Origin: Leucobacter rhizosphaerae
GTDB lineage: Bacteria > Actinomycetota > Actinomycetes > Actinomycetales > Microbacteriaceae
Reading direction: 5' to 3'
DNA: 64,000 nucleotides
NCBI RefSeq assembly: GCF_022919175.1
Contig: NZ_CP095043.1
Span: 3,038,001-3,102,000, forward strand
Part shown: positions 48,800-63,653 of the stretch, piece by piece
Position numbering within the stretch: the stretch's first letter is position 1
Layout of the letters: every line of letters begins with the position of its first letter
The notes under the pieces: generated by a model
What the model saw: only the letters and a program-made list of their open reading frames with translations
What the model was told of the DNA's origin: nothing
Databases searched by the model: none
Position numbers and translations under genes: made by a program

Positions 48800-49620
48800 C
48801 GTGCACCGCCGACGTCGAGTGTGAGGGGCCCGAACGCGCGGGTGTGCGCAACGATGTCACGGGTCGGGGCGATCCAAGCGCCGGTCTCCGCGAGGTGCTC
48901 CACGACCTGCTCGAGCATCGCGAGGCGCGATGGCCGTCCGATGAGCATGGGGTGCGTCGTCACCATCACGTGGCCGCCGACACTGGCGATACCCTCGATC
49001 TCGGGACGCCAGACATCGAGCACCTCCCGAGGCGACCGGATCGTCTTCTCCCAGGTGTCGTTGGCGAACCAGAAGTGCGGGGCGTCGTCGAGGATCCACG
49101 ACACGGGGACCTCGACGAGGTCGTGATGTTCGTGGATGTAGGGCAGGAGATGGTCGAGCAGATTGGAGCTGTACCCGAAGCCGTGCTCGACGAGTAGATC
49201 GAGTGTGTTCGGGCTGAACTCCCACGAGGGCGATCGATACCCGGTCACGTCCGCACCGAGCTCCCGCAGCACCTCGAGCCCCTGATGGAGCTCCTCTCGT
49301 TCCTCGTCGACGGTGAGCGCCGTCGGGGAGATGTGGGAGTGACCGTGATGGCCGACCTCGTGGCCCGCCGCGATGATCCGGCGCACCGCGTCGGGGTGGC
49401 GCAGGGCGTCGCGCCCGCAGATGAAGAAGGTCGCGGTGATCCCGTGCCGTTCGAGCAGGTCGAGGATCAGAGGCACACCGACGCGGGGACCGTACCGCCC
49501 CTGCGACAGCACCCCTGGCGCTGCGGCGTTGGCCGGATTTTCTCCGACCCACACCTCTTCGGCGTCGAAATCGAAGCTCAGCGTCGCGGCGTACGAATGA
49601 CCGTTCGGCCACTGAGTCAT
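48796..49620 (-). CDS. Polysaccharide deacetylase (NodB/PuuE-like) family hydrolase
   Basis: NodB-fold metal-dependent hydrolase of 274 residues. The first metal Asp is in ATLSFDFDAEEVW, the metal His pair in GHEVGHHGHSHISP, the catalytic Arg region in GYRSPSWEFSP, and a late motif in VMVTTHPML. No signal peptide or wall-binding module, so it is cytoplasmic. This and the company of hydantoinase genes favour an allantoinase/cyclic-imidase-like role (as PuuE opens the allantoin ring) over polysaccharide deacetylation. That is inference. The ATG is one base after the hyuB stop with AAGGAGG just upstream. Confidence 0.88.
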   Translation of the reverse strand: MTQWPNGHSYAATLSFDFDAEEVWVGENPANAAAPGVLSQGRYGPRVGVPLILDLLERHGITATFFICGRDALRHPDAVRRIIAAGHEVGHHGHSHISPTALTVDEEREELHQGLEVLRELGADVTGYRSPSWEFSPNTLDLLVEHGFGYSSNLLDHLLPYIHEHHDLVEVPVSWILDDAPHFWFANDTWEKTIRSPREVLDVWRPEIEGIASVGGHVMVTTHPMLIGRPSRLAMLEQVVEHLAETGAWIAPTRDIVAHTRAFGPLTLDVGGAR

Positions 49621-49621
49621 G

Positions 49622-51322
49622 TCATGCCTCCTTCGTGACGGGACCGGTCGAAGCCGGTCGGTGGTCGTCGAGGTTCGGCGCTCCCAGCCGTCCCTCGCGG
49701 GCGTCGCGACTCCGGAGCTCCGCCGAGCGGTGCGCCGGATCCCCGAACCCGCCACCGCCCGCGGTTTCGACACGGACGACGGTGCCGGGCTCGAGCACCC
49801 GCGACGTCTTCTGCGGGCGGTCGAGCACTGCGCCGTCGGGCCCGATCACGGTGATGATCGTCGGCCGGGCGGGGCCGCCCTCCCCGGCGCCCTCCGGAGC
49901 GAATCGCGCGTCGGTCTGCTCGGCGTAGAACGTCGCGTGCTGCGGGTGATCGAGGATCTCGTACTCTCGCACCAGACCCAGACCGCCGTTGAACTCTCCG
50001 AGCCCCTGGGAGCCGGGGCGGAACTCCGTCTTCCGGACGCGGATGCGGTAGTTGGTCTCGACGACCTCCGTCGGCATGATGCCGACGTTCGACATATAGG
50101 TGTCGACGCCGTCGATGCCGTCGCCGGTCGGGGTGGCGCCCGTGCCCCCGCCGACGACATCGGCCATGACGGACGGTCGATCGGTGCGCGGGTGGGTCGA
50201 ACCGACATTGAAGCTGAAGAAGGTCACCGTGCTCGAGGCGACGGCGCGATCCGGCCAGATCTCGTACATCGCTCGGATGAGCGTGTCGGCGAGACGCTGG
50301 CAGGAATTGTGCCGGATCGAGACGGCTGCCGGGTGCCGGGGATTCACGACCGAACCTTCTGGGGCGATGATGTCGAGTGCGCGCAGGAGCCCGTCGTTCG
50401 AGCCGAGGCCGGGTGCGACGACGCAGCGGACGGCGTAGACGAGCCCCGCACGCGCGCTCGCCCACGGGATGTTCATCGCTCCGGCGGTCTGGGGATCCGA
50501 TCCCGAGAGATCGATGGTGAGCCGGCTGCCCCGTTTTTCGATGCGAGCGTGGATCCGGGTGGGTGGGCCTCCGCGACCGTCGTCGTCGAGCGCTCCCTCC
50601 GCCTCGCCCACCCCGTCGGGAAGCGCGGAGAGGAGCCGCGAGACGGCGGACTCGACCGAGTCGAGCATGCGCTGCATCACCTCGCGCAGAGCCGGGGCTC
50701 CGTAGAGGGCGGCGAGCTCGTGCACGCGCTCCTCGCCGAGCCGGCAGGCCGCGCGCTGCGCGCGCAGATCGCTGAGCGTCGACAGCGGGTCGCGGATGTT
50801 CTCGGTCAGCAGGGCGACGAGGTCCTCGTTCTCCACGCCGGCGATGGAGAGCCGAACCGGAGGCATGACGACCCCCTCGCCGTAGAGCTCGGTGAGCTCG
50901 GGTCCCTCGCTCCCCGGGTTGACGCCGCCCACATCGATGTGGTGCGCCGCCGTGCCGGCCCACGCGGCCAGTGCGCCGTCGAGGAAGATGGGGATCACGA
51001 CGTTGACGTCCGGGAGATGCATGGCGCCCTGGTAGGGGTGATTGCAGATAAACGCGTCGTGCTCGGAGATCCGTCCGCGCCAGCGCTCGAGAATCGACTG
51101 CACGACGAGGGACATGGCGCCGAGCTGCGCGGGAATGTAGTCGGCCTGCGCGACCAGATCGCCGTCCGCGGTGAAGAGGGCGCAGGAGAAGTCGTCCATG
51201 TCCCGGATGATCGGACTGTAGCTGGAGCGCTTGAGGACGCTCCCCATTTCCTCGGCGGCCGACTGCAGCGCCGCGGACGCGACCTCCGCGGTCACGGCGT
51301 CGATCAGGTGCGGTGCGGTCAT
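49622..51322 (-). CDS. hyuB: Hydantoinase B/oxoprolinase family protein
   Basis: HyuB subunit of 566 residues, of the family that with HyuA forms ATP-dependent N-methylhydantoinase, 5-oxoprolinase or acetone carboxylase. Conserved blocks: SSYSPIIRDMDDFSCALF, FICNHPYQGAMHLPDV, AAHHIDVGG, RSTIDLSG-like LTIDLSGSDPQTAGAMN, and a C-terminal FRPGSQGLGEFNGGLGLVREYE and ETAGGGGFGDP. It overlaps hyuA by 4 bp and is followed at one base by the deacetylase gene. The reaction is likely ring opening of a hydantoin or lactam coupled to ATP; exact substrate unknown. Confidence 0.93.
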   Translation of the reverse strand: MTAPHLIDAVTAEVASAALQSAAEEMGSVLKRSSYSPIIRDMDDFSCALFTADGDLVAQADYIPAQLGAMSLVVQSILERWRGRISEHDAFICNHPYQGAMHLPDVNVVIPIFLDGALAAWAGTAAHHIDVGGVNPGSEGPELTELYGEGVVMPPVRLSIAGVENEDLVALLTENIRDPLSTLSDLRAQRAACRLGEERVHELAALYGAPALREVMQRMLDSVESAVSRLLSALPDGVGEAEGALDDDGRGGPPTRIHARIEKRGSRLTIDLSGSDPQTAGAMNIPWASARAGLVYAVRCVVAPGLGSNDGLLRALDIIAPEGSVVNPRHPAAVSIRHNSCQRLADTLIRAMYEIWPDRAVASSTVTFFSFNVGSTHPRTDRPSVMADVVGGGTGATPTGDGIDGVDTYMSNVGIMPTEVVETNYRIRVRKTEFRPGSQGLGEFNGGLGLVREYEILDHPQHATFYAEQTDARFAPEGAGEGGPARPTIITVIGPDGAVLDRPQKTSRVLEPGTVVRVETAGGGGFGDPAHRSAELRSRDAREGRLGAPNLDDHRPASTGPVTKEA

Positions 51323-53385
51323 CGTGCGTCCTCGTTTCGGGTCGGTTCGGTGACGACGATGTCGAGGGTGCTGGCCACCCGGCATCGTTGCCCCGGAAGG
51401 ATGATCGTGGTCGCGTCCATCTGCTGGATGATGGCCGGTCCGGTGAAGTCGGTGCCGGGGAGGAGTCGGGAGCGATCGATGACCGGGAGCTCCACGGCCC
51501 CGATCCCCGGGAGTCGCACGTCCCGTCTCGCGAGGACCGCTGCATCGTCGAGTGGCCGAGGGACGCTCTCCCGTGCATGTTCAAGGGTGCGGTCCACGTC
51601 GCCGTTCGAGGTGAGACGGGCGGTCACGATCTCGACGGGCTCCAGCACATTGCTGTGACCGTAGCGTTCGCCGTGCGCTGCATGGAAAAGCTCGGGCACG
51701 CGCTGCAGGGTCTCCGGATTCCAATCGGTGAGAGGGATGTTGAGCTCGAAGCCCTGGCCCCGGTACCGGCAATCGAGCGAGGCGGTGGTCGAGATGCGGT
51801 CGGCCGCGATGCCGTCGTGCTGGAACTGCTCCACGGCCTCGGCCGCGGCATCATCGAACCACTCGCTGAGCGACGCGGACGTCTCCGCCGAGGCATCGCT
51901 CAGCAGGGTCTGGGAGTGATCGAGTCGCAGCCCGGCGACGAGGAGACCGTCGGCGGCGAAGAGGCCCGGCCGCAGCGGGATGATCGCGGACTTGAGCGCC
52001 AGATGCCGGAGCATCATGCCGGCGTGGAGGGGACCGGCGCCGCCGAACGGGACGAGGGCGAAGTCCCGAGAATCGAGGCCGCGCTCCACGCTGACCTTGC
52101 GCACCGCCCGGACCATGTGCGCCAGTCCGATGGCGAGAATCGCTTCAGCGCCCTCCTCGACCGACATCCCGAGCGGCTCGGCGATCCGCTGCACGGCCTG
52201 CCTCGCCAGGTCACGATCGATGACGAGCCCGCCCGCGAGCGCGCCGGCGCCGAGCGTGCCGAGCACGACATGGGCGTCACTGATGGTCGGTTCGATGCCG
52301 CCGCGCCCGTAACAGGCCGGCCCGGGCACCGCCTTCGCCGAGGCCGGTCCGACCTTCAGGCTGCCGGCTTGATCGATCCATGCGATGCTGCCGCCGCCGG
52401 CGCCGATGGTGTGGATGTCCACCGTCGGGGCGAGCAGTGTGTGATCCTGCACGTGCTGCACGGTCGTGAACGGGATCCGTCCGTCGCGGAGCAGGCAGAC
52501 GTCGGTGGACGTACCGCCCATGTCGAGGCTGATCAGGTTGGGCTCGTCGAGCGATACGGCGAGGGCCGCCAGGCCCGCGACACCGCCGGCCGGGCCGGAG
52601 AGGACCAGCCGGTGCGCTTCGGCGCCGGCGCGGGCCGCGGGGACGCTGCCGCCGTTCGACTGCATGACGAGCAGCGGCGACGAGACGCCGCTGGCAGCGA
52701 GCGCTGCGCTCGCGCGGTTCAGGTATCGCTCGACGAGCGGACGCAGTGCGGCGTTGATCGCGGTCGTCGCGGTGCGCGGATACTCCCGGAACTCTCGGGC
52801 CACCTCCGACGAGAGCGTCACCGGGCGGTCGGGGAAGGCCGCTCGGAGGGCCTGGCCGACGACGCGCTCGTGCGCGTCATTGAGATAGCTGAACAGGAAC
52901 GACACCGCGATGGCCTCGGGATCCGCGGCGCGGAGGCGTTCGATCAGGTCCGTCAGTTCCGCCGGGTCGATCGGGGACAGCACCCGGCCGGCAGAGTCAA
53001 GCCGCTCGTCGAGGTCGAAGCGGAGCTCGCGGGAGATGAGCTCCGAGGGGCGTTCCGGCGTGAGGCTGTAGACGTCGGGCCGATTCTGCTGCCGAAACCC
53101 GAGCACGTCGCGGAACCCGCGGGTGGTCACGAGAGCGGCTCGACCCAGCGATCCGGTGAGCGTGGCATTGGTGGCGACGGTCGTGCCGTGGCACACGAGC
53201 GCGACCTCGGTGAGGGGCACCCCGAGCGCCTCGAGGGAGGCCACGGCATCGCGCAGTCCCTGCGACGGGTCCTGGGGCGTGGAGGCGACCTTCGCCTCGC
53301 GCACCTCGCCGTCGGAGCGGCGCGCGATGGCGTCGGTGAAGGTCCCTCCGGCGTCGATGCTGATCGTCCACTGCCGTGCGGTCAT
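51319..53385 (-). CDS. hyuA: Hydantoinase A/oxoprolinase family protein
   Basis: HyuA subunit of 688 residues with the ASKHA-type ATP-binding fold: ISIDAGGTFTDAIARR at the N-terminus, CHGTTVATNATLTG, and LISLDMGGTSTDVCLL as the second phosphate loop. It phosphorylates or activates the ring substrate together with HyuB. ATG preceded by CAGGAG. First gene of the leftward operon hyuA-hyuB-deacetylase-C45. Its promoter carries one of the four shared 16-bp elements of the island (53459-53474) and a -10 CAGACT at 53433-53438. Confidence 0.93.
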   Translation of the reverse strand: MTARQWTISIDAGGTFTDAIARRSDGEVREAKVASTPQDPSQGLRDAVASLEALGVPLTEVALVCHGTTVATNATLTGSLGRAALVTTRGFRDVLGFRQQNRPDVYSLTPERPSELISRELRFDLDERLDSAGRVLSPIDPAELTDLIERLRAADPEAIAVSFLFSYLNDAHERVVGQALRAAFPDRPVTLSSEVAREFREYPRTATTAINAALRPLVERYLNRASAALAASGVSSPLLVMQSNGGSVPAARAGAEAHRLVLSGPAGGVAGLAALAVSLDEPNLISLDMGGTSTDVCLLRDGRIPFTTVQHVQDHTLLAPTVDIHTIGAGGGSIAWIDQAGSLKVGPASAKAVPGPACYGRGGIEPTISDAHVVLGTLGAGALAGGLVIDRDLARQAVQRIAEPLGMSVEEGAEAILAIGLAHMVRAVRKVSVERGLDSRDFALVPFGGAGPLHAGMMLRHLALKSAIIPLRPGLFAADGLLVAGLRLDHSQTLLSDASAETSASLSEWFDDAAAEAVEQFQHDGIAADRISTTASLDCRYRGQGFELNIPLTDWNPETLQRVPELFHAAHGERYGHSNVLEPVEIVTARLTSNGDVDRTLEHARESVPRPLDDAAVLARRDVRLPGIGAVELPVIDRSRLLPGTDFTGPAIIQQMDATTIILPGQRCRVASTLDIVVTEPTRNEDAR

Positions 53386-53432
53386 CGGTGACTCCTGTTC
53401 GTGCCGGGCGGATCGAGGTGCCCGGTGATGCC

Positions 53433-53474
53433 AGTCTGAGCGTCTCCGGGCGCCGATACATGCGTCATTCGACG
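53433..53474 (-). promoter_or_regulatory. hyuA promoter with LuxR-type box (site A)
   Basis: Minus strand: CGTCGAATGACGCATG (53474 to 53459), 20 bases, then CAGACT (53438 to 53433). The leader to the hyuA ATG is about 41 bases with a ribosome site. The dyad CGTCG-AA-TGACG is centred at about -42.5 if transcription starts 7 bases after the -10. Confidence 0.7.
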
Positions 53475-53506
53475 TACATCCACCGTGGAGCCCCGCGGTC
53501 GACGTC

Positions 53507-53548
53507 CGTCATTTGACCGATGCCCCCGGGCGGCCCTGACGCGAGGGT
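53507..53548 (+). promoter_or_regulatory. SDR-operon promoter with LuxR-type box (site B)
   Basis: CGTCATTTGACCGATG at 53507-53522, 20 bases, then GAGGGT at 53543-53548, about 38 bases before the dehydrogenase ATG at 53593. Same geometry as the hyuA promoter, pointing the opposite way. Confidence 0.65.
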
Positions 53549-53592
53549 GGAGCCACGGCAGATCACCGCACGTCACGAGGAGGCACGGGTCC

Positions 53593-54390
53593 ATGTCAGG
53601 AGTCACCAATGACCGGGGAGCGGCGCCGCGACCCGTCGCGATCGTGACGGGCGCCGCGTCGGGGATCGGCCTGGCGGCCGCCCGCCGATTCCTCCGATCG
53701 GGGTTCGCGGTCGGCATCTGCGATCGCTCCGAGGCGCTGCACCGTCTGTTCACGGCGGAGATCCGGGACGGGCTGGCCGTGGCGGTCATCGGTGATGTGA
53801 CGGATGCCGGGGTGCGCGGTGCACTCGTAGATGCCGTGCGCTCGAGCTTCGGTCGACTCGACGTCCTCGTGAACAATGCCGCCACGGGAGGGGAGTCCGC
53901 CACGGTCGGTGCGCTCGACCTCGACGACCTCCGTCGGACCCTGGAGGTCAACGTGGTCGCCGTGATCGGACTCGTCCAGCTGGCCCTGCCGCTGCTCGTC
54001 GCATCCGGTGCGGGTCGGATCGTGAACGTGGGCTCACTGTTCGGCGACGAACCCGTGGCGGGCGGGGCGCCCTACTGCGTCAGCAAGGGTGCGATTCACA
54101 CGCTGACACGCTCCCTCGCGGTGGAGCTCGGACCGCAGAACATCGTCTGCAACACGGTTGCGCCGGGGTACATCCTCACCCCGATGCACGCCGAGGAGGT
54201 CGAGTTCCAGGCGGCGGAGCGGGGCATGACGGCCGAGGAGCGGTACGCGGAGCTCCGGTCCGAGGTGCCACTCGGTCGCCACGGTACACCCGATGACGTG
54301 GCGTCGACGATCCTCTGGCTCGCGACGCCCGAGAGCGCCTACGTCACCGGGCAGAAGATCGCGGTGAACGGAGGGGTGGCGGTCGGATGA
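53593..54390 (+). CDS. SDR family oxidoreductase (island, first)
   Basis: Classical dehydrogenase of 265 residues with intact motifs: IVTGAASGIGLAAARRF, NNAATGG, and the catalytic PYCVSKGAIHTLTRSLAVEL, plus a normal GQKIAVNGGVAVG end. The ATG has GAGGAGG 10 bases upstream, and sits 45 bases after the -10 of the shared-box promoter. It heads the operon with a second dehydrogenase and the LuxR-type fusion regulator. Probably oxidises or reduces an intermediate of the pathway fed by the island's transporter. Confidence 0.9.
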   Translation: MSGVTNDRGAAPRPVAIVTGAASGIGLAAARRFLRSGFAVGICDRSEALHRLFTAEIRDGLAVAVIGDVTDAGVRGALVDAVRSSFGRLDVLVNNAATGGESATVGALDLDDLRRTLEVNVVAVIGLVQLALPLLVASGAGRIVNVGSLFGDEPVAGGAPYCVSKGAIHTLTRSLAVELGPQNIVCNTVAPGYILTPMHAEEVEFQAAERGMTAEERYAELRSEVPLGRHGTPDDVASTILWLATPESAYVTGQKIAVNGGVAVG

Positions 54391-55121
54391 TCGAGTGCCA
54401 GGGGGCGCCGGGCCTGGTGATCGCGGGAGACGCCGGGCCGGTCGTCGGTGCGCTCATCCGGCTCGCGGTGGCGCGGGGCTGGCGCGTGGCCTGCGTGGGA
54501 CGTCACTCGGACCCCGAACTGGAACGGGCGGGCGCGGAGTGCATCCAGGTCGATTCCACGGAGTCCGAGGCGATCGAATCGGCGCTGTCGCGCCTCACCT
54601 CCTCGTGGCGGCAGCCGCCGGCGGCACTGGTCTACGCGGGAGGGATCGAGGCGCCGCTTGCGGCGGTCACCGAGTCGGTCACCCGCTGGGACCGGGTGCA
54701 GGACCGGCAATTGGGCGCCGCTTTTGTGTTCGCGCAGGCGGGCGCCAGGGAGATGCTCCGGTTGCGTGGCGGGGCTCCCGTCGACGACGGCTCGATCGTC
54801 TTTCTGGGAGAGGCCTCGGCGGCCCGCGGCATCCCGGGGTATCCGAGGGCGTCGTCCGGCGCCGCCGTCACGGGTATGACCGGGATGATGCGGCAACTGG
54901 CGGTGGAGTGGGGGCCCTACGGGATCCGGGTGAACATGCTCCAGGCCGGGCTCATCGCGGGTGGCGGCCTGCAGCCGGAGGAACTCTCCCGGAGGATCCC
55001 GCTGGGGCGCGAAGGGAGCCCCGAGGAGGTCGCGGAAGCTTGCTACTATCTGATCAGCAGGGCCTCGTCGTACGTCACGGGAGTGGCGCTCGCCGTCGAC
55101 GGAGGGTTCTTGGCCACCTGA
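54387..55121 (+). CDS. Degenerate SDR family protein
   Basis: Protein of 244 residues with the SDR fold but altered key motifs. The glycine-rich cofactor loop TGxxxGxG is replaced by IAGDAGPVVG, and the YxxxK catalytic motif reads GYPRASSGAA, with Ser where Lys is required. The end (EEVAEACYYLISRASSYVTGVALAVDGGFLAT) is a normal SDR C-terminus. Thus it is likely inactive as a dehydrogenase by itself. ATGA overlap with the intact SDR before it suggests a heteromeric partner or regulatory subunit, as known for other paired SDRs. Alternatively it binds ligand only. Confidence 0.85.
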   Translation: MIECQGAPGLVIAGDAGPVVGALIRLAVARGWRVACVGRHSDPELERAGAECIQVDSTESEAIESALSRLTSSWRQPPAALVYAGGIEAPLAAVTESVTRWDRVQDRQLGAAFVFAQAGAREMLRLRGGAPVDDGSIVFLGEASAARGIPGYPRASSGAAVTGMTGMMRQLAVEWGPYGIRVNMLQAGLIAGGGLQPEELSRRIPLGREGSPEEVAEACYYLISRASSYVTGVALAVDGGFLAT

Positions 55122-55164
55122 CCCCGGGGTCGACTGGCGGAGGACACGGACCGGGAGAAGACGC

Positions 55165-56910
55165 ATGCCGCACTGGGCGATCGAACGCACGATCACCGCA
55201 GATACGTCGGAGTCGATGCTGCCGTCGCAGGTCCCCGCAGAGATCTGGGCGTATGCGAAAGCGTTCCTCATCATCCATCGGCCGTCGCTCCGGTTTCTCT
55301 GGCGCAGCGACGACGAGTGGCTCGACGTGCAGTTCACCCGCGAGAGCAGCCGGGGGTCGCTCAGTCGGAGCCCGGATCGGATGATCGCCCGCGTCGAGCA
55401 GGTCGAGATGCCGCGCGGGATCACGGTGCGGGAGCTGGACGTGCTGACGCTTCTCGCACTCGGGCTCACGAACCTCGGCGTGGCCGAGCGCCTCGGCACC
55501 TCGGCACGCACGGTCTCGAGTCAGCTCGAGCGCCTCCTCGAGAAGCTGGATCAGAGCTCTCGCGGTGGCCTCGCCGCAATCGCGGTGGACCTCGGACTGC
55601 TGCGGATGCCGCTCCCGGGCGGCGCCCCCGAAAGCGGCGGCATCGGGGTCGCGGAACTCGAACTCGCCTTCCGGCACCGGCTCGATCGCGACCTCGAGCC
55701 GATCCGGAATCACTTCATGACCCGGGTGCCGATCCGCCTCGGGATCGTGGTGCCCGACAGCCCGGCGACGGACAGTGCACAGGCCCTCAACGGTGCGCTG
55801 CTCGCGATCGACGAGATCAACCAGCAGGGCGGCATCGGCGGGCGTATGATCGAGCCGATCCGCGAGGTCGTGCGCACCTTCGATTGGGACGACATCCGAG
55901 CCGGGCTCGGCCGCCTCTTCGACGCCGACGTGGATGCGATCATCACCACCTACGTCAGTGCCGAGCATCCGCAGTTCATGGAGGTGATCGCGGACTACGG
56001 CAAGCCGTTCCTCCACACGGCGACGTTCGAGGCCGACGTGCGCCGAGCCGAGCTCGAGCCGTGGAAGTACGGCATGATCTTCCAGACCTGCGCGTCGGAA
56101 ACCTACTACGGTCCGGGCCTCCTGCGTCTCGTCCGCAAGCTCGAGCTCGCGGAGCTCTGGAGTCCTGCGCGACGCACGATCGTGCCGATCGAGATGCCCT
56201 CCGAAAGCATGCATCTCGCCACACCCGAGTTCCTGGCCCAGGCGGCCACGCAGGGCTGGCACGTCGCCGACCCGATCCGCACCCCCGTCGGGGAGACCGA
56301 CTGGGACGACGTCATCGCGCGGGCTTCGGCGCACGACCCCAGTGTGATCCTCATCGCCAACTACATCGACAGCGAGCTGGTGGAGTTCCAGCGCGCGTTC
56401 CAGCGGGCACCGCTGCAGGCGCTGGTATACGGCATCTACTCGCCGTCGAGCCCATCCTTCATCGGGCAACTGGGCGAGCAGGCGGACGGGGTGATCTGGT
56501 CCACCACCACGGGCACCTACGACGACGATCTCGGCAGCCGCTTCCGCACGCAGTATCGTGCGAAGTACCGCGAGGACCCGGGCTGGTCGATCGCCGGGGC
56601 CGTGTACGACCAGGTTCGGATGCTGGCCGCCGCCTGGTCCTCGGTCGACGCCCGCAACACGGTCGATGTGGTGCGGTACCTGCGACGGTGGCCGTATCGC
56701 GGCGTGAACGGCGTCTACTACTTCGGCGAGACCGGCCAGGCGCCGCGGCTGTACCCCGACACCACTCCGGATGCCGCGCTCAGCCAGGCCCACCTCGTCT
56801 ACCAGATCCAGGGCGGTCACCACGTGCTGCTCGATCCCGAGCCGTTCGGATCGATCGACGACTTCGTGGTACCCCGCTGGCTCGGGCGGAGTGCAGAATC
56901 CGTCAAATGA
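55165..56910 (+). CDS. LuxR-type regulator fused to a periplasmic-binding-protein sensor domain
   Basis: One-component regulator of 581 residues. Residues 1-80 form a small unassigned region. Residues about 86-150 form a LuxR/GerE helix-turn-helix: ITVRELDVLTLLALGLTNLG, then VAERLGTSARTVSSQLERLLEKL. From about residue 198 (VPIRLGIVVPDSPATDSAQALNGALLAIDEINQQGGIGG) to the end it is a complete type I binding-protein fold of the branched-chain amino acid/urea class. It has no signal peptide or membrane helix, so the sensor is cytoplasmic. The sensor shares blocks with the transporter binding protein next door (GVIWSTT-GT, YQIQGG, YPD-T-D). Last gene of the SDR operon; the box for the transporter promoter overlaps its final codons. 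Confidence 0.9.
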   Translation: MPHWAIERTITADTSESMLPSQVPAEIWAYAKAFLIIHRPSLRFLWRSDDEWLDVQFTRESSRGSLSRSPDRMIARVEQVEMPRGITVRELDVLTLLALGLTNLGVAERLGTSARTVSSQLERLLEKLDQSSRGGLAAIAVDLGLLRMPLPGGAPESGGIGVAELELAFRHRLDRDLEPIRNHFMTRVPIRLGIVVPDSPATDSAQALNGALLAIDEINQQGGIGGRMIEPIREVVRTFDWDDIRAGLGRLFDADVDAIITTYVSAEHPQFMEVIADYGKPFLHTATFEADVRRAELEPWKYGMIFQTCASETYYGPGLLRLVRKLELAELWSPARRTIVPIEMPSESMHLATPEFLAQAATQGWHVADPIRTPVGETDWDDVIARASAHDPSVILIANYIDSELVEFQRAFQRAPLQALVYGIYSPSSPSFIGQLGEQADGVIWSTTTGTYDDDLGSRFRTQYRAKYREDPGWSIAGAVYDQVRMLAAAWSSVDARNTVDVVRYLRRWPYRGVNGVYYFGETGQAPRLYPDTTPDAALSQAHLVYQIQGGHHVLLDPEPFGSIDDFVVPRWLGRSAESVK

Positions 56911-56942
56911 CGCATGCTCCCGTGCGGGCCCTCGCCTAGCGT
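56901..56942 (+). promoter_or_regulatory. Transporter promoter with LuxR-type box (site C)
   Basis: CGTCAAATGACGCATG at 56901-56916 with perfect dyad CGTCA-AA-TGACG, 20 bases, then TAGCGT at 56937-56942. The box covers the last codons and stop of the regulator gene. Leader to the binding-protein ATG is about 65 bases. Confidence 0.75.
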
Positions 56943-57013
56943 GAGAGGCAGCACAGATCCGGCTCGATCTCTCGCCGGGGAGTCACGTGCATGCCTGTCA
57001 CGAAGGAGTGGAA

Positions 57014-58342
57014 ATGAGCGAGCACAATCCGGTCACCGGCCCCCGGAAACCGCGGGTCACGCGCAGGGACCTGATGCGGGGCATCGGGGTTGCGGGGGCG
57101 GCCGGGCTGGTGGCGGGTGGAGCGGGTGGATTCTTCCTCTCACCGCGCCGCGGGGCGACGGGTGCCTCCACGGGCGGCGGCGGAACGATCCCGTTCGGCA
57201 TCGTGGCGCCGGTGACGGGCCCGTATTCCGGCGATGGCCAGGAGATGGTGCGAGGAGCGGAGCTCGCGATCGAAGACATCAATGCCGCGGGCGGGGTGCT
57301 CGGCAACACGGTCGAGCTCGTTGTGGGCGATGTCGGCGACCAGTCGCCCGAGAACTTCATCCAGGTCGCGGAACGACTCGTCTCGCGGCAGAACGTCGCT
57401 GCGGCCTCGGGCGGATACACGACCGCCACATCCGTCGAGTTCGACACCTACGCGCAGGCGGGTGTGCCGCTCTTCCACACGAATACCCTGCAGGCCAACA
57501 CGGACTTCGTCGTCGAGCGAGGCCTGACCAACGTCTTCCAGTGCTGCCCGACCGAAATCTGGTACGCGAGCGGATTCCTGCAACTCATGCAGGGCTGGAT
57601 CGACGAGGGAGTCTGGACGCCGTCCTCGCAGACCGCGGCGGTGATCTCGAGCAACGACGCGTACTCCATCTCGATCGCCACGGTGCTGCAGGACGGGCTG
57701 CGTGAGATCGGCTGGGACATCACGATGTACGAAGAGGTCTCGGTGCCCTACGTCGACTGGGGTCCGCAGCTCTCGAAGATCCGGAACAACCCGCCCGGGC
57801 TGATCTTCGTCACCGACTACCTGGCGGGCGACCTGGCGAGTTTCGCGAAGCAGTTCGCGACCGCCCCCACACCGTCGTTGCTGTACCAGCAGTACGGCCC
57901 GAGCGTTCCGGAGTATCTCGAACTCGCGGGGGATGCCGCGAACGGCGTCATCTGGTCGACGACGATCGGCACACTCCCCGACACCATCGGCACGGACTTC
58001 CGCGCGCGCTACCTCGAGGCCTACGGTTCGGAAGCCGGGCTGAGCCAGTCGGGGGCGCAGTACGACATCGTCCGACTGTGGGCGCAGGCCGCATCGCGCG
58101 CGGGCGACGCCTACGACTTCGAGCGCGTCGCCGAGGCCGTGCGACAGTCGACGTTCCGCGGGGTCGTCGGCACCTACCACTTCGATCCGACCGAGCGCAC
58201 GGCCATCCCGTACCCGGATGCCACGAACGACCCCAGCCTCGGGATGCCCCACCTCACCTACCAGATTCAGGGCGGCGAGCAGCAGTTGATCTCGCCATCG
58301 CCTTATGAGACCGGGGAATTCCAGCTCCCCCCGTGGCTGTGA
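57014..58342 (+). CDS. Tat-exported branched-chain-amino-acid/urea-type binding protein
   Basis: Substrate-binding protein of 442 residues (type I fold, Peripla_BP_6). The N-terminus has a twin-arginine signal (TRRDLMRG at residues 16-23, then a Gly/Ala hydrophobic stretch) without a lipobox Cys. The mature domain starts IPFGIVAPVTGPYSGDGQEMVRGAELAIEDINAAGG. The C-terminal half resembles the sensor part of the upstream regulator. No membrane anchor is seen, so how it is retained is unclear. AAGGAG lies 6 bases before the ATG. First gene of a five-gene importer operon. Family ligands include branched amino acids, amides and urea. Confidence 0.92.
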   Translation: MSEHNPVTGPRKPRVTRRDLMRGIGVAGAAGLVAGGAGGFFLSPRRGATGASTGGGGTIPFGIVAPVTGPYSGDGQEMVRGAELAIEDINAAGGVLGNTVELVVGDVGDQSPENFIQVAERLVSRQNVAAASGGYTTATSVEFDTYAQAGVPLFHTNTLQANTDFVVERGLTNVFQCCPTEIWYASGFLQLMQGWIDEGVWTPSSQTAAVISSNDAYSISIATVLQDGLREIGWDITMYEEVSVPYVDWGPQLSKIRNNPPGLIFVTDYLAGDLASFAKQFATAPTPSLLYQQYGPSVPEYLELAGDAANGVIWSTTIGTLPDTIGTDFRARYLEAYGSEAGLSQSGAQYDIVRLWAQAASRAGDAYDFERVAEAVRQSTFRGVVGTYHFDPTERTAIPYPDATNDPSLGMPHLTYQIQGGEQQLISPSPYETGEFQLPPWL

Positions 58343-58350
58343 GCGGCATC

Positions 58351-59148
58351 ATGGGCGACGTGATGCTCGAGGTCCGACAGGCGACCAAGCGCTACGGCGG
58401 GCTCACCGCCGTCGACCAGGTGAGTTTCGAGGTGCACGAGGGCGAGATCTTCGGCATCGCCGGACCGAACGGCGCGGGGAAGACCACCCTGTTCGACGTC
58501 GTCACCGGCATGGTGCGCGCGACGAGCGGCGAGGTCCGGTTCCGAGGAACGCCGATCCATCGCGCCTCGATCCACGAGATCTGCCACCTCGGAATCACCC
58601 GCACGTTCCAGAAGCCATCGGTCTTCGACAGCGAGACCGTGATGGGCAACGCCGTGGTCGGTGCGCACTTCGGTTCGGGCGCCCCGTGGTGGCGGGGACT
58701 GTCGCGGAACGCCGATGCGTGGGATCGCGCCGCCGCGGCACTCGATTTCGTCGGACTGGGGGAGCAGGCCGGCGAGCTCTCCGGACCGCTCCCGGTGTAC
58801 GACAAAAAACGACTCATGATCGCTTCGGCGCTGGCGAGCTCGCCGCGCATGCTCTTCCTGGATGAGCCGTTCGGTGGCCTCAGCGACGAGGAGATCGACG
58901 CGCTGTTGGTGCTGCTGGAACGGATCAATGGCGACGGGGTGACCATCGTGCTGATCGAGCACGTGATGCGGGCGCTCATGTCGCTCTCCGATCGGGTGCT
59001 CATCATGAACCAGGGCAGGACGCTCCGGCAGGGGCAACCGGGCGAGGTCATGAGCGATCCGGAGGTCGTGCGGGTGTATCTCGGCTCCTCCGCCGACGAA
59101 GCCGCGTCGACCGCGGCGCATCGAGTCGTACGGAAAGGCGGCGCGTGA
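58351..59148 (+). CDS. LivG-type ABC transporter ATPase with variant signature
   Basis: ATPase of 265 residues of the branched-chain amino acid class. Walker A is GPNGAGKTTL, the Q-loop region ITRTFQKPSVF, Walker B MLFLDEPFGGL with the class-typical H-loop IEHVM. Unusual: the ABC signature, normally LPYGxQRxLEIARAL in LivG, reads LPVYDKKRLMIASAL, so the signature glycine is missing. In a two-ATPase system one site can be degenerate. Start choice is uncertain: in-frame GTG codons at 58333 and 58339 overlap the previous stop; ATG 58351 gives the family N-terminus (MLEVRQATKRYGG) most closely. Confidence 0.9.
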   Translation: MGDVMLEVRQATKRYGGLTAVDQVSFEVHEGEIFGIAGPNGAGKTTLFDVVTGMVRATSGEVRFRGTPIHRASIHEICHLGITRTFQKPSVFDSETVMGNAVVGAHFGSGAPWWRGLSRNADAWDRAAAALDFVGLGEQAGELSGPLPVYDKKRLMIASALASSPRMLFLDEPFGGLSDEEIDALLVLLERINGDGVTIVLIEHVMRALMSLSDRVLIMNQGRTLRQGQPGEVMSDPEVVRVYLGSSADEAASTAAHRVVRKGGA

Positions 59149-59858
59149 TGCTTGAGGTGACGGACCTGGTCGCAGGCTACGGGTCGACGACGATCGTGCA
59201 GGGGATCTCTCTCGAAGTGGATGCCGGGGAATGCGCTGCGCTCATCGGACCCAACGGGCACGGCAAGACGACCCTGCTTCGCGCGATCAGCGGGCTCATC
59301 AAGATCCGGTCGGGCACGGTGAGATTCGACGGTGTCGACCTCACGCGTGAGCGCGCCGAGAAGATCGTGGAGCGCGGCATCATCCACATGCCGCAGGGTG
59401 ATCTGGTGTTCCCCGACATGTCGGTCGAGGAAAACCTCGTGCTGGGCGCGTTCACCTCTGCTGCGTCGAAGCGGGCACGGCAGCGGATGGAGGAGGTCTA
59501 CGAGATCTTCCCGCGGCTCCTGGAACGGCGCACGCAGCGCGCCCGCACCCTCTCGGGTGGTGAGCGGCGCATGCTCGCCATCGGGAGGGGGCTCATGGGA
59601 GATGCCCGCCTCATCATGGTCGACGAGCCGAGCCTCGGGTTGGCCCCGGTGATCGTCGATGAGGTGTACGAGCAGCTGCGACGGATCGTCGACAGCGGCA
59701 TGACCGTCCTGCTCGTGGAGGAGAACGTCAACCGCGCGCAGAGCCTGGCGTCCCGCCTGCACCTCGTCGAGAACGGCGAGATCGTGCGTTCGGGCAGCGG
59801 CGCGGAGGTGCTCGACGAGCGCGCGATCCGCGAGACCTACCTGGGGGTGACCGAATGA
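59148..59858 (+). CDS. LivF-type ABC transporter ATPase
   Basis: Partner ATPase of 236 residues with all canonical motifs: Walker A GPNGHGKTTLLRA, Q-loop GIIHMPQGDLVFPDMSVEENL, signature LSGGERRMLAIGRGLM and Walker B LIMVDEPSLGLAP. The ATG shares bases with the LivG stop; a GTG one codon earlier is equally possible. GGAAAGG is 9 bases upstream. With LivG it forms the motor of the importer. Confidence 0.92.
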   Translation: MLEVTDLVAGYGSTTIVQGISLEVDAGECAALIGPNGHGKTTLLRAISGLIKIRSGTVRFDGVDLTRERAEKIVERGIIHMPQGDLVFPDMSVEENLVLGAFTSAASKRARQRMEEVYEIFPRLLERRTQRARTLSGGERRMLAIGRGLMGDARLIMVDEPSLGLAPVIVDEVYEQLRRIVDSGMTVLLVEENVNRAQSLASRLHLVENGEIVRSGSGAEVLDERAIRETYLGVTE

Positions 59859-60742
59859 ACCTCGTCCTGCAGACCCTCGTGAGCACGCTCGTGCAGGGAT
59901 CGATGCTGGCGCTCATCACGATCGGCATGAGCCTCGTCTACGGAACGCTCCGCGTGCTGAACATGGCGCAGGGGGTGATGGTGATGGTCGGCGGCATCGC
60001 GGCCTGGACGTTCGTCGCCGGCACGGGGCTCTCGCCCTGGATCGCCATGATCTTCGCGGTGATCGTCACGTTCGCGCTCGGCATGCTGAGCTACGGCGTC
60101 GGCATCAGTCGGCTCATCGGCCGCGCCGGGGTCGACTTCGAGATGACCGCGTTCATCTCCACGTTCGCGATCGCCTCGATCGTGCAGAGCGTCGTGCAAC
60201 TCGTCTACGGTCCGCGGCAGAAGGACTTCCCGTCGCTCGTGGAAGGCCGGATCCAGCTCACGGACGGGGTATCGATCACGTGGCAGCAGATCCTGACCGC
60301 GGGGATCGCAATTCTGGCCCTTGTCGCGCTCGGGCTCTTCCTCAGCCGGTCGCGATACGGACTGGCGATCGTCGCGGTCGCGCAGAATCTCGACGCCGCT
60401 CGCCTGATGGGCATCCCTGCGCGCAGGGCGTACGTGCTCACGATGGGCCTCGCCGCGGGACTCGCCGGCCTGGCCGGCGTGCTGCTCGCCCCGGTCTACT
60501 TCGTGTCGCCGACGATGGGCGAGCTGCCCATGCTGCAGGCCCTCATCGTGGCGATTTTCGCGGGGTTGGGGAGTACCAAGGGCACCATCATCGCCGCGTA
60601 CATCATCGGATTCGTGCAGGCCGCGGTCTCCATCTTCTGGAGCTCCACGTACGCCATGCCCGTGCTGTACGCGTTGATCGTCGTCGTGCTCATCGCACGA
60701 CCCTTCGGAATCGCCGGGAAGCCCCAGGAGGCCAGGCTATGA
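59855..60742 (+). CDS. LivH-type ABC transporter permease
   Basis: Permease of 295 residues with eight helices. Family blocks: ITIGMSLVYGTLRVLNMAQGVMVMVGGIAAW, the ATPase-contact loop SRYGLAIVAVAQNLDAARLMGIPARRAYVLTMGLAAGLAGLAG and IFAGLGSTKGTIIAAYIIGFVQA. Overlaps both LivF and LivM by 4 bp (ATGA), indicating coupled synthesis. Confidence 0.92.
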   Translation: MNLVLQTLVSTLVQGSMLALITIGMSLVYGTLRVLNMAQGVMVMVGGIAAWTFVAGTGLSPWIAMIFAVIVTFALGMLSYGVGISRLIGRAGVDFEMTAFISTFAIASIVQSVVQLVYGPRQKDFPSLVEGRIQLTDGVSITWQQILTAGIAILALVALGLFLSRSRYGLAIVAVAQNLDAARLMGIPARRAYVLTMGLAAGLAGLAGVLLAPVYFVSPTMGELPMLQALIVAIFAGLGSTKGTIIAAYIIGFVQAAVSIFWSSTYAMPVLYALIVVVLIARPFGIAGKPQEARL

Positions 60743-61860
60743 GCGCACCCACGTCCGTCTCGGATCCGCGCGCGGTCGCACTGCCGCGCTGGAACGCAAA
60801 GGTGATGGGGTGGCCGCAACCACGGCCGCTCCCCATCACCGTGGCCCTCGTCGTCGGGATCCTCTTCCCGTTCCTCGCCCCAGATCGTAGCTGGCTCACC
60901 GTGGCCACGCTCGCCATGATCACGCTGACGCTCGCCCAGAGCTGGAACCTCGTGCTCGGGTACGGTGGCGTCTGGAACTTCGGCCAACTCGCCTTCTACG
61001 CGCTCGGGGCCTATTCCGCAGCGCTGGTCACCATGTACCTCCCGATCCCGGCATGGCTCTCGATCCCGATCGCCGGGCTCGTCTCCGGGGGCATCGCGCT
61101 GCTGCTCTCGATCCCGATCCTGCGACTGCGGGGGATCTACGTCTCTCTGCTCACCTTCGGGTTCGCGGAGGTGGTGCGGCTGCTGATCATCGCCGATCAA
61201 TCCGGTGTGACCGGGGGCGCCTATGGGCTTTCCGGCTTCGGCGGATTCGGGTTCACGGGCCCCGGCGCCGCCAATGTGAACTACTGGATCGGGCTCGCGG
61301 CCGCGGTGGTGACCTGCCTCATCGTGCTGATCCTCGTGCGCTCGCCGCTGGGAAACGGCATGATCGCGATGCGCGACAACCCGACGCTCGCCTCGGCGCG
61401 CGGGATCAGCCAGCGGACCTACCAGATGCTCGTGTTCGCGGTGTCGGGGTTCCTCGCCGGCGTCGCGGGATCGCTCTACGCGCATGTCTTCGAAGTCGCC
61501 TCGCCGACACTCATGGGCCTGGGGCCGATGACCCTCGTGGTCACCATGCTCGTCGTGGGCGGCCTCGGGACGGTCACCGGACCGATCATCGGAACGCTGA
61601 TCCTCTCCTTCGTGCAGATGCAGCTCCAGGACGTTCCGGAGATCCGGCTCGCGGCACTCGGCGCGGTGCTCCTCATCGTCATCCTCTTGATGCCGCGCGG
61701 GCTCGTGCCGTTCTTCAGCGCCGTCTGGGCCCGCTTCCAGGCCTGGATGGACGAGGACGAATACGACGAGGACGAGGACGTCGAGGATGGGGCATCCGTG
61801 GAATCGTCCTCTGAATCGCCCGCGGCGGCGGCACGGGAGGGCGCCGAGCGGGGTCTATGA
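60739..61860 (+). CDS. LivM-type ABC transporter permease with acidic tail
   Basis: Second permease of 373 residues. Typical LivM blocks: LVLGYGGVWNFGQLAFYALGAYSAAL, IPILRLRGIYVSLLTFGFAEVVRLL, and contact loop SPLGNGMIAMRDNPTLASARGISQRTYQML, ending with MPRGLVPF. A cytoplasmic C-terminal tail of about 45 residues is strongly acidic (DEDEYDEDEDVEDG) then Ser/Ala-rich; it is not part of the standard family. Its end overlaps the convergent SDR gene by 6 bp. Confidence 0.91.
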   Translation: MSAPTSVSDPRAVALPRWNAKVMGWPQPRPLPITVALVVGILFPFLAPDRSWLTVATLAMITLTLAQSWNLVLGYGGVWNFGQLAFYALGAYSAALVTMYLPIPAWLSIPIAGLVSGGIALLLSIPILRLRGIYVSLLTFGFAEVVRLLIIADQSGVTGGAYGLSGFGGFGFTGPGAANVNYWIGLAAAVVTCLIVLILVRSPLGNGMIAMRDNPTLASARGISQRTYQMLVFAVSGFLAGVAGSLYAHVFEVASPTLMGLGPMTLVVTMLVVGGLGTVTGPIIGTLILSFVQMQLQDVPEIRLAALGAVLLIVILLMPRGLVPFFSAVWARFQAWMDEDEYDEDEDVEDGASVESSSESPAAAAREGAERGL

Positions 61861-62583
61861 GATGAGATACCCGCCGTCGACGGGGATGGTCGCCCCGGTG
61901 ATGTAGGAGGAGGCTTCGCTGATCAGGAAGAGGCACGCCGCAGCGACGTCGGCGGGTTCGCCGAGCCGCTGCACGGGGAGCCGCTCCGTGAGGGCCGCGA
62001 CCGCACCCGGGGTGTCGCCCAGCGTCAGCATCGGCGTGTCGATCATGCCGGGGGCCACGGCGTTCACGCGGATTCCGCGAGGGCCCAGTTCTACGGCGAG
62101 TTGCTGCGTGAGGCTGACGATGGCCCCCTTGCTCGCGGAGTAGGCGACGCACGGCTCAGCGGCGTCGCCGCGGCCGTACGCGACGGAGGAGAGCAGAACG
62201 ATTGCGCCGCGGGTCATCACGCGCGCCGCGGCCTGGGCAACGAGGAACGAGCCGGTGCCGTTGATGCGCATCACCCGGTCCCACTCGGCGACAGTCATCT
62301 CGGAAATCGGCCTCCACCGGTAGACGCCCGCGCAGTGGACTACGGCATCGGGCGGTCCGGTGAGTGCAGACTCCGCATCGTCGAACGCGGCGGCGGTTGC
62401 GGCTGGATCGGTGAGGTCCGCGGTGCGGGAGACGAGACCGTCCCGCGGCACGGCCGGTGCGCGGAGGTCGAGACCGTAAACGCGACCGCCGGAGTCGATC
62501 ACGGCGTCGCCGACGGCGCGGCCGATCCCGGATGACGCGCCGGTGACGATGACGCGGCGGGGCAGCGTGGCATTCAGATCCAT
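61855..62583 (-). CDS. SDR family oxidoreductase (island, third)
   Basis: Classical dehydrogenase of 242 residues with intact motifs: VIVTGASSGIGRAVGDAV, HCAGVYRW, LLSSVAYGRGD, catalytic VAYSASKGAIVSL, and VDGGYLIS end. ATG has CAGGAG 8 bases upstream. The promoter region carries the fourth shared box (62656-62671), so it probably belongs to the same regulon although it faces the transporter operon tail to tail. Confidence 0.9.
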   Translation of the reverse strand: MDLNATLPRRVIVTGASSGIGRAVGDAVIDSGGRVYGLDLRAPAVPRDGLVSRTADLTDPAATAAAFDDAESALTGPPDAVVHCAGVYRWRPISEMTVAEWDRVMRINGTGSFLVAQAAARVMTRGAIVLLSSVAYGRGDAAEPCVAYSASKGAIVSLTQQLAVELGPRGIRVNAVAPGMIDTPMLTLGDTPGAVAALTERLPVQRLGEPADVAAACLFLISEASSYITGATIPVDGGYLIS

Positions 62584-62629
62584 TCGAGACTCCTGAGGTG
62601 AGAGGCGATGTATTCGCCCGATCGAGTCC

Positions 62630-62671
62630 ATCGCACCACAGCGACCGAGTAGCGGCATCCGGCATGTGACG
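62630..62671 (-). promoter_or_regulatory. SDR promoter with LuxR-type box (site D)
   Basis: Minus strand CGTCACATGCCGGATG (62671 to 62656), 20 bases, then TGCGAT (62635 to 62630). The box matches site C at 13 of 16 positions and keeps the exact distance to the -10, which is itself weak. Confidence 0.55.
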
Positions 62672-62709
62672 GAGACGCTGTGCCCGAGCTCAGCGTTCCG
62701 CTCCCGTCT

Positions 62710-62737
62710 TTGACATTCCCGCGCCGAGGCGTATGCT
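62710..62737 (+). promoter_or_regulatory. nrtR-nadA promoter
   Basis: -35 TTGACA (62710-62715), 16-base spacer, -10 TATGCT (62732-62737). The best sigma-70-like promoter in the window. Transcription would start near 62744, inside the operator. Confidence 0.7.
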
Positions 62738-62739
62738 GG

Positions 62740-62762
62740 CTTATGGTCAAGGTGACCATAAG
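62740..62762 (+). promoter_or_regulatory. NrtR operator, perfect inverted repeat
   Basis: Arms CTTATGGTCA (62740-62749) and TGACCATAAG (62753-62762) with spacer agg. It overlaps the predicted transcription start, so bound NrtR would repress its own operon. Palindromes at NAD-biosynthesis promoters are the known targets of this regulator family. Confidence 0.8.
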
Positions 62763-62786
62763 TTGGTGCGAGGCGAGGAGGCTGAC

Positions 62787-63653
62787 GTGTTCTACGAGAA
62801 CGCCAGCGTGAGTGAGCGTCTCACGATGCCGCCCGCCGTCGCCGTGTCCACGGTCGCCTTTGCGCTGACCCCGCCCGAGGACGCGACCGTCGACCCGTCG
62901 GCACCCGCCGGTGCCGGGCAGACGACCCTCTGGATCCCGCTCGTGCGGCGAACCCGGGCGCCGTTCCTCGACCGGTGGGCGCTCCCAGGCGGCCCCACGC
63001 ATTGGAACGAGACCCTGACTGATACCGCGCTCCGCACGCTGCAGGACGCAGCGCTGCGGGCCCCGGGGTATCTCGAGCAGCTGTACTCCTTCGGCGGTGT
63101 CGAGCGCTCCGCCCAAGCGCAGCGTCTCGTCACGATCGCCTACTGGGCGCTCTTCGGTGAGCGCGACCTCACCGCCCCCGCCGTGCCGGTGAGCACGTCC
63201 GGCGCCCCGTCGGGCGGCGCGCGCTGGGACGATGTCGTCCCGCCCAGGTCTCCGCGTATCGACGAAGGGAACGACCCGTCTTCGGGCACCGATCGCAACG
63301 TCGCCTGGTTCTCCGCGGACCGGCTCCCGGATCTCGCGTTCGACCACGGAGACATCGTCGATACGGCGCTCGCGCGGCTCCGCTCGAAGACCGAATACTC
63401 GGCGGTCGCGCACCGATTCCTCGGCCCCGAGTTCACGCTCGGCCAGTTGCGCGCCGTGCACGAGGCCGTGCGTGGACAGGCGGTGGATCCCGCCAACTTC
63501 CGACGGCAGGCGCTCGCGCAGGGCAACCTCGTCGATACCGGCCGGTGCGAGACGGGCACCCGGCATCGTCCGGCGAGGCTGTACCGCTTCGCGTCCGATC
63601 CCGCACTCGAACCCACCACCCCAGACCCATCATCCACAGGGAGCAAGCCATGA
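62787..63653 (+). CDS. nrtR: NrtR-type Nudix-related NAD regulator
   Basis: Transcription factor of 288 residues with a Nudix-like ligand domain and winged helix. The Nudix box region LPGGPTHWNETLTDTALRTLQDAAL has lost the REUxEE catalytic residues, as in true NrtR repressors that sense ADP-ribose or related NAD metabolites. The C-terminal module is FLGPEFTLGQLRAVHEAVRG, then FRRQALAQGNLVDTG and RPARLYRF, the NrtR DNA-binding signature. A variable Pro/Ser/Gly-rich insert sits at about 135-160. The GTG start has GAGGAGG 6 bases upstream. ATGA overlap with nadA; a perfect operator lies at the promoter, implying autoregulation. Confidence 0.9.
   Translation: MFYENASVSERLTMPPAVAVSTVAFALTPPEDATVDPSAPAGAGQTTLWIPLVRRTRAPFLDRWALPGGPTHWNETLTDTALRTLQDAALRAPGYLEQLYSFGGVERSAQAQRLVTIAYWALFGERDLTAPAVPVSTSGAPSGGARWDDVVPPRSPRIDEGNDPSSGTDRNVAWFSADRLPDLAFDHGDIVDTALARLRSKTEYSAVAHRFLGPEFTLGQLRAVHEAVRGQAVDPANFRRQALAQGNLVDTGRCETGTRHRPARLYRFASDPALEPTTPDPSSTGSKP

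Follow-up and report, generated by a model that had tools for sequence, protein, structure and literature searches.

In class-II activators of the LuxR/TraR type, the lux-type box is centered at -42.5. AmiC of Pseudomonas aeruginosa is a separate protein that restrains the RNA-binding ANTAR antiterminator AmiR (compare NasS-NasT), and members of the LacI family combine a helix-turn-helix (HTH) with a type-I binding-protein-like sensor in a one-component protein. We analyzed a 64,000-nucleotide stretch of Leucobacter rhizosphaerae (the window; positions 3038001 to 3102000 of NZ_CP095043.1, G000:C1), which belongs to a genome of 3.34 Mb in one contig. It contains an island of catabolic and transport genes with a 581-amino-acid fusion regulator (55165 to 56910, + strand) and palindromic boxes in front of hyuA, sdr1, sbp, and sdr3. 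As judged from comparisons between related loci, the four boxes are probably operators of one regulon, with the fusion protein acting as a ligand-switched class-II activator.

Like LuxR/TraR proteins, the fusion regulator carries a LuxR-type HTH (HTH_LuxR, GerE, PF00196; 36.6 bits against a cut-off of 23.5). The same domain was matched in all 50 members of the homologue set A1 at an E value of 1e-5. Its predicted operator is also an approximately 20-bp palindrome beside the -35 region, at a near-fixed distance from the -10 element. In contrast to those proteins, in which the HTH is usually C-terminal, the HTH here occupies residues 85 to 143 of 581, within the N-terminal quarter. It follows an alpha/beta part (residues 1 to 80) and precedes a type-I solute-binding-protein domain (about residues 187 to 575), which is the presumed sensor; the target is a catabolic and transport island. 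No autoinducer-binding domain was matched in Pfam, either in the window regulator (E value of 0.001) or among the families listed for its 50 relatives (1e-5), and no ANTAR match was listed for any of these proteins. The regulator matched Peripla_BP_6 (type-I ABC solute-binding protein) by both fold and family score; the listed fold matches covered residues 186 to 564, with none on the N-terminal residues 1 to 80. Thus, unlike AmiC, whose partner is a separate ANTAR protein, this sensor fold shares one polypeptide with a DNA-binding HTH, whose predicted sites are boxes at promoters. The architecture resembles that of the LacI family in being a one-component HTH with a type-I binding-protein-like sensor, but differs in its LuxR-type HTH, Peripla_BP_6 sensor, and activator-like geometry. 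By hydropathy alone, no obvious export signal was present in the regulator, the highest 19-residue mean being 1.29, from residue 93 in the HTH; the neighboring sbp product reached 1.7 at residue 24.

A sequence-only reading of the window had proposed a 16-bp box at the four promoters, exactly 20 bases from a -10-like hexamer. All four boxes were present, at 53459 to 53474 (- strand), 53507 to 53522 (+), 56901 to 56916 (+), and 62656 to 62671 (-), and the distance to the hexamer was 20 bases in each case. The sites are thus real, but the true unit is longer. The consensus from related loci is CATSCGTCA-NN-TGACGSATG, a 20-bp palindrome, as expected for a dimer binder; one of the two site tables behind it was built with both strands of every site and is symmetrical by construction. 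In the window, the palindromes are TGTACGTCGAATGACGCATG for hyuA (53459 to 53478, - strand; hexamer CAGACT at 53433 to 53438), CGTCCGTCATTTGACCGATG for sdr1 (53503 to 53522, + strand; GAGGGT at 53543 to 53548), AATCCGTCAAATGACGCATG for sbp (56897 to 56916, + strand; TAGCGT at 56937 to 56942), and TCTCCGTCACATGCCGGATG for sdr3 (62656 to 62675, - strand; TGCGAT at 62630 to 62635). The 3' end of the regulator gene falls within the sbp box, and of the four promoters only that of sbp combines a perfect box with TANNNT. The sdr3 box is the weakest site. In relatives, the hyuA hexamer reads CACAAT (L017, L018, and L023) or CAGAAT (L020 and L022), and the TGCGAT of sdr3 recurs in L018 (offset 21) and L019 (offset 20).

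Box conservation upstream of orthologues had been set beforehand as a test. A profile built from the 50 homologues of A1 led to 74 loci in public genomes; these were joined by the loci of a Microbacteriaceae search, ten short loci were dropped, and the resulting 80 loci plus the window were annotated with the window's own proteins. In Leucobacter, Mycolicibacterium, Agrococcus, Arthrobacter, and uncultured actinobacteria, the box is found again at promoters of orthologous genes; the genes 3' of it are hyuA, sbp, sdr1, sdr3, a deacetylase-like gene, and the regulator. The boxes held up in this test for hyuA, sdr1, and sbp and, less strongly, for sdr3, whose box has counterparts in L018, L019, and L023; in L017 and L020, both of which carry sdr3, none reached the detection threshold. 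A perfect CGTCA-NN-TGACG core was found in 18 of the 18 clade-A loci compared, drawn from the same five groups, and in 6 of 49 others, all six in one further uncultured actinobacterial group of 8. On the tree, 23 of 24 clade-A rows have the perfect core, the exception being L073, which sits on a very long branch. By eye, the ribosome-binding site stands out as a conserved block in the intergenic alignments of Leucobacter and its kin, as do the boxes and parts of the -10 element, while the flanking intergenic DNA has diverged.

That divergence bears on whether the boxes might be conserved for some other cause, namely the coding end of the regulator, chance, or shared recent ancestry. The sbp box does overlap the last codons of the regulator in the window, and common descent links the loci. 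Against this, the boxes precede genes of five types, arranged in several different orders. In addition, 15 of the 25 sbp promoters are preceded by the regulator on their own strand, and there its stop codon falls anywhere from 20 bases past the start of the box to 48 bases before it (-20 to +48), while the box stays in place; coding constraint was therefore rejected for the sbp box. As for chance, the window held 30 matches with up to three mismatches against 41.7 expected, and 98 of 100 shuffles gave at least 30, so there was no excess at this level. Over the whole genome, up to one mismatch gave 8 matches, 6 of which fell within 9.2 kb (3091459 to 3100671); the reversed control pattern gave 1. 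Among the six island matches, the sbp box is counted twice, once per strand, and the match at 53787 to 53802 is inside sdr1. The latter was left as a chance site, since no counterpart was listed there in relatives. The two matches outside the island are inside open frames that exceed 220 codons and continue beyond the stretch examined; one has no -10-like hexamer in place, and at the other (L112), TCTCGT stands at offset 20 and agrees in two of the three letters. Taken together, a cause other than operator function is scarcely credible.

The spacing was examined with the nearest box per gene and locus, which kept 66 promoters from 103 rows; a hexamer at a given offset was counted as -10-like when it shared two or all of the three fixed letters of T-A-N-N-N-T. 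Such a hexamer lies 20 or 21 bases past the box in 63 of the 66 promoters; the three that lack it stay in the count, as does a doubtful site (L026, 6367). The remaining adjacent offset pairs averaged 8.4, with a maximum of 25, and in 2,000 shuffles the best pair summed to at most 23, versus 63 observed. Since the sites are related by descent, the 66 trials are not independent. The exact 20-base spacing thus held for all four window sites, and in relatives it widens to 20 or 21. A palindromic operator at a near-fixed distance from the -10 element is a trait of lux-type class-II activators. If transcription starts lie 7 bases past the hexamer, the dyad would be centered near -42.5, which fits that class.

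The sequence-only reading had also described the -35 boxes as weak or absent. Indeed, a consensus scan of 53380 to 62800 found no sigma-70-like promoter at the four box sites; it returned a single one, that of nrtR, with 0.7 expected in shuffles. Across the 66 promoters, the best match to TTGACA at spacers of 16 to 18 had at most 3 of 6 letters in 48, which leaves no shared -35. The TTGACC or TTGACG found inside some boxes was ruled out as a -35, being 24 bases from the -10 by eye count. These data also bear on whether the fusion protein is a repressor, freed by its ligand from a site adjoining the -35 region. The box does adjoin and partly cover the -35 position, which repressors also use, and 4 or 5 letters of TTGACA occur there in 18 of the 66 promoters (best of three spacers, raw counts). 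However, a -10 distance fixed at 20 to 21 bases is needed by activators and not by repressors, and the lack of a sigma-70-like promoter at the four sites is an activator-type requirement. NarL/FixJ-type HTH proteins placed beside the -35 region are usually activators. We consider repression unlikely.

A scan of relatives for the box combined with TANNNT had been suggested as well. With the degenerate box TNCGTN6ACGNA followed by TANNNT at 20 or 21, 25 of 80 loci matched without mismatch and 32 with one. Nine control patterns (eight palindromes of the same shape and one other) matched 0 to 1 and 0 to 4 loci, respectively; the 80 loci include the window and a few duplicates. The scan thus succeeded well above controls, and left 55 of the 80 loci without the strict form. 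Matches without mismatch include loci from Rhodococcus, Nocardioides, and Actinomycetospora; the regulon extends beyond this island type. Alphaproteobacterial loci showed the degenerate box only with a mismatch or with a partial -10. When the distant clades were searched de novo for exact palindromes, most of the sites returned could not be linked to promoters, and the degenerate scan was more useful. To sum up what was computed, the palindrome and a -10-like element at 20 to 21 bases are conserved together with the regulator gene across several actinobacterial groups, and a weaker, degenerate form of this arrangement occurs in other groups and in some Alphaproteobacteria.

Two box-first searches, one for the exact box in Microbacteriaceae and one for the full palindrome across the class, examined the association in the reverse direction. 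A regulator relative (E value of 1e-40) occurs in 7 of 398 Microbacteriaceae genomes, four of which are clade A by tree. The exact 16-base box occurs in 28 of the 398 genomes, namely 4 of the 4 with a clade-A regulator, 0 of the 3 with a distant one, and 24 of the 391 with none. Without the window's own genome, the source of the pattern, the figures are 3 of 3 versus 24 of 394. Most single matches to such a short pattern are due to chance, because only 4 of the 20 exact-box loci fetched adjoin the regulator. The full palindrome was found in 3 of 394 genomes of the class: the window's own, L115, and L114. In L115, from a genome of another family (G642), it is located at about 1500, flanked by a regulator-like HTH frame (33% identity over residues 44 to 146) and a divergent binding-protein gene; a search with the regulator protein at an E value of 1e-60 found 5 of 394 genomes, L115's not among them. 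Among the four others from that search, G688 (L116) has a diverged box on the hyuA side, and in L117 to L119 no box was found within the short stretch examined. The proposal that the boxes form one regulon was upheld, as they recur upstream of orthologues, keep their spacing, and co-occur with the clade-A regulator. The likely binder of the box, on this comparative evidence, is the fusion protein.

The boxes could also be the operators of another regulator, such as the NrtR-type protein encoded at 62733 to 63653, divergently from sdr3. The likely operator of nrtR itself, CTTATGGTCA-N3-TGACCATAAG, likewise has a GTCA...TGAC core. Its half-sites are separated by N3, though, versus N2 in the boxes, and relatives of nrtR turned up in just three of the box-bearing loci shown (the window, L018, and L019). 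Boxes also occur in loci without nrtR, and some of these (L033 and L082) have hyuAB and the fusion regulator although sbp was not matched. NrtR was rejected as the box binder on half-site spacing and distribution, and binding by another regulator of this kind appears very improbable.

With the fusion protein as the activator, we propose the following mechanism. A dimer would bind the 20-bp palindrome through its LuxR-type HTH. The ligand, an amide- or lactam-like compound or else something formed early in its breakdown, would enter through the neighboring ABC transporter, and the cytosolic binding-protein domain would close on it. Ligand binding would switch the dimer so that RNA polymerase is recruited from a site centered near -42.5, the regulator substituting for the absent -35 contact. 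The hydrolase operon (hyuA-hyuB-deacetylase-C45 hydrolase) would be activated, as would the sdr1-sdr2-regulator operon, the transporter operon, and sdr3. Because the regulator gene comes third after the sdr1 box in the window, the regulator may amplify its own expression by positive autoregulation; in other gene orders, the box is between the regulator and a divergent target.

Several observations weigh against this interpretation. Activation and repression cannot be read apart from sequence, and 18 promoters show partial -35 similarity. The hyuA, sdr1, and sdr3 hexamers are poor in the window, the strict composite pattern is absent from most loci (55/80), and no convincing box was found in several distant regulator subfamilies. 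The presence of the regulator at most loci is by construction, since the loci were collected through it. On the box-first side, 16 of the 20 exact-box loci fetched do not adjoin the regulator, and near the full palindrome of L114 none of the window's proteins has a counterpart. At the degenerate box of L077, the binder could be an AraC-type regulator encoded divergently from the homologue. Hydropathy exceeded 1.6 in 7 of 99 homologues, so a membrane form is possible for some. Finally, the ligand class is derived from neighboring enzymes, and these vary by clade.

The origin of the sensor was addressed with a tree that combined 79 binding domains from regulators with 24 from transporter proteins. 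The two groups are split at a single branch with 100% SH-aLRT support in a tree whose root is not fixed, which fits one fusion event. At 59 of 74 positions that are at least 85% conserved in the regulators, the same residue is found in at least 70% of the cognate transporter proteins (cognates only), consistent with a related ligand for the two. From the island targets, we infer that the ligand class may be amides or lactams, as HyuA and HyuB have caprolactamase models as their best matches, though well under the cut-offs, and accompany a deacetylase-family enzyme that resembles PuuE below cut-off, a C45 hydrolase above its cut-off, and a branched-chain/urea-type transporter below cut-offs. 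HyuA/HyuB-type subunits of ATP-dependent lactam hydrolases are likewise found in CapAB, 5-oxoprolinase, and hydantoinase operons; unlike CapAB, the island proteins score below the caprolactamase equivalog cut-offs of NCBIfam (CapA, 462.4 bits; CapB, 218.3 bits; cut-off, 1000 each). The neighbors in other clades include ethanolamine ammonia-lyase, a carbon-nitrogen hydrolase, D-glutamate cyclase, or an MFS transporter together with HyuAB, so more than one compound may serve as the ligand. Distant homologues near ethanolamine-ammonia-lyase genes were seen in L077 (11593 to 13888, EutB and EutC) and L053 (7556 to 9115, EutB), in clusters that also hold ABC transporter genes and short-chain dehydrogenases.

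A broader reading is that this is an undescribed one-component family of Actinomycetota and Pseudomonadota, founded when a transporter binding protein became joined, once, to a LuxR-type HTH. Its members would sense, inside the cell, the same amide- or lactam-like compound that the sister protein picks up outside. The box and its geometry would have been kept while the target pathways changed among lactam hydrolases, C45 hydrolases, and ethanolamine-ammonia-lyase-type clusters. We regard this joint claim as evenly poised. The nearest named relatives of the regulator are from Leucobacter species. Named proteins among P0001 to P0099 are mostly labeled as transporter substrate-binding proteins, which masks the HTH, and the regulatory role of the family is hidden under these names. 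Passages of a caprolactamase-related text (PMC8453981) mention no regulator or box, and the words periplasmic and Peripla are absent from the main text of a 2012 census of LuxR proteins in Actinobacteria (PMC3466318). A study of such a fusion was not among the matches listed, which comprised titles and the beginnings of abstracts in a collection with few subscription papers. The predicted operator, promoter geometry, and regulon are now testable for this regulator family. If a transporter's binding protein has been reused as an intracellular sensor of the compound it also binds in transport, ligand specificity could be read from the transporter, and the family would offer ready biosensors for amides and lactams, including polymer monomers.

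The remaining genes of the island fall on both sides of the regulator. On the - strand are hyuA (hydantoinase/oxoprolinase A, 51319 to 53385) and hyuB (hydantoinase/oxoprolinase B, 49622 to 51385), with CapA and CapB, respectively, as their best NCBIfam models. These are followed by a polysaccharide-deacetylase-family gene (48796 to 49773), whose real start may be internal to this frame and whose NCBIfam matches, including PuuE, are all below cut-off, and by a C45 family autoproteolytic acyltransferase/hydrolase gene (47684 to 48799), which is above cut-off. On the + strand, the short-chain dehydrogenase genes sdr1 (53593 to 54390), which heads sdr1-sdr2-regulator, and sdr2 (54387 to 55121) precede the regulator. 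The transporter genes follow on the same strand: sbp (57014 to 58342), encoding a solute-binding protein whose N terminus resembles a twin-arginine signal by eye; two ATPase genes (58333 to 59148, the longest frame, with a possible start at 58351; and 59145 to 59858, LivF/UrtE type, below cut-offs); a UrtB/LivH-type permease gene (59855 to 60742, below cut-offs); and a presumed second permease gene (60739 to 61860, an open frame with its start read by eye). The short-chain dehydrogenase gene sdr3 (61855 to 62583) is on the - strand.

Some minor observations were made along the way. A long-branch homologue locus, L075, comes from a record named Bibersteinia trehalosi (Pasteurellaceae) and has an A+T-rich box-like site followed by TATAAT at 15406. 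The record of L088 is titled Rhodococcus, and the tree taxonomy put it under Cyanobacteriota, probably a labeling error. In the region 62710 to 62762 of the window, the sigma-70-like promoter match of nrtR reads TTGACA-16-TATGCT and is followed by the perfect palindrome given above (62740 to 62762). This palindrome is likely nrtR's own operator. Similar letters are found upstream of nrtR in L018.

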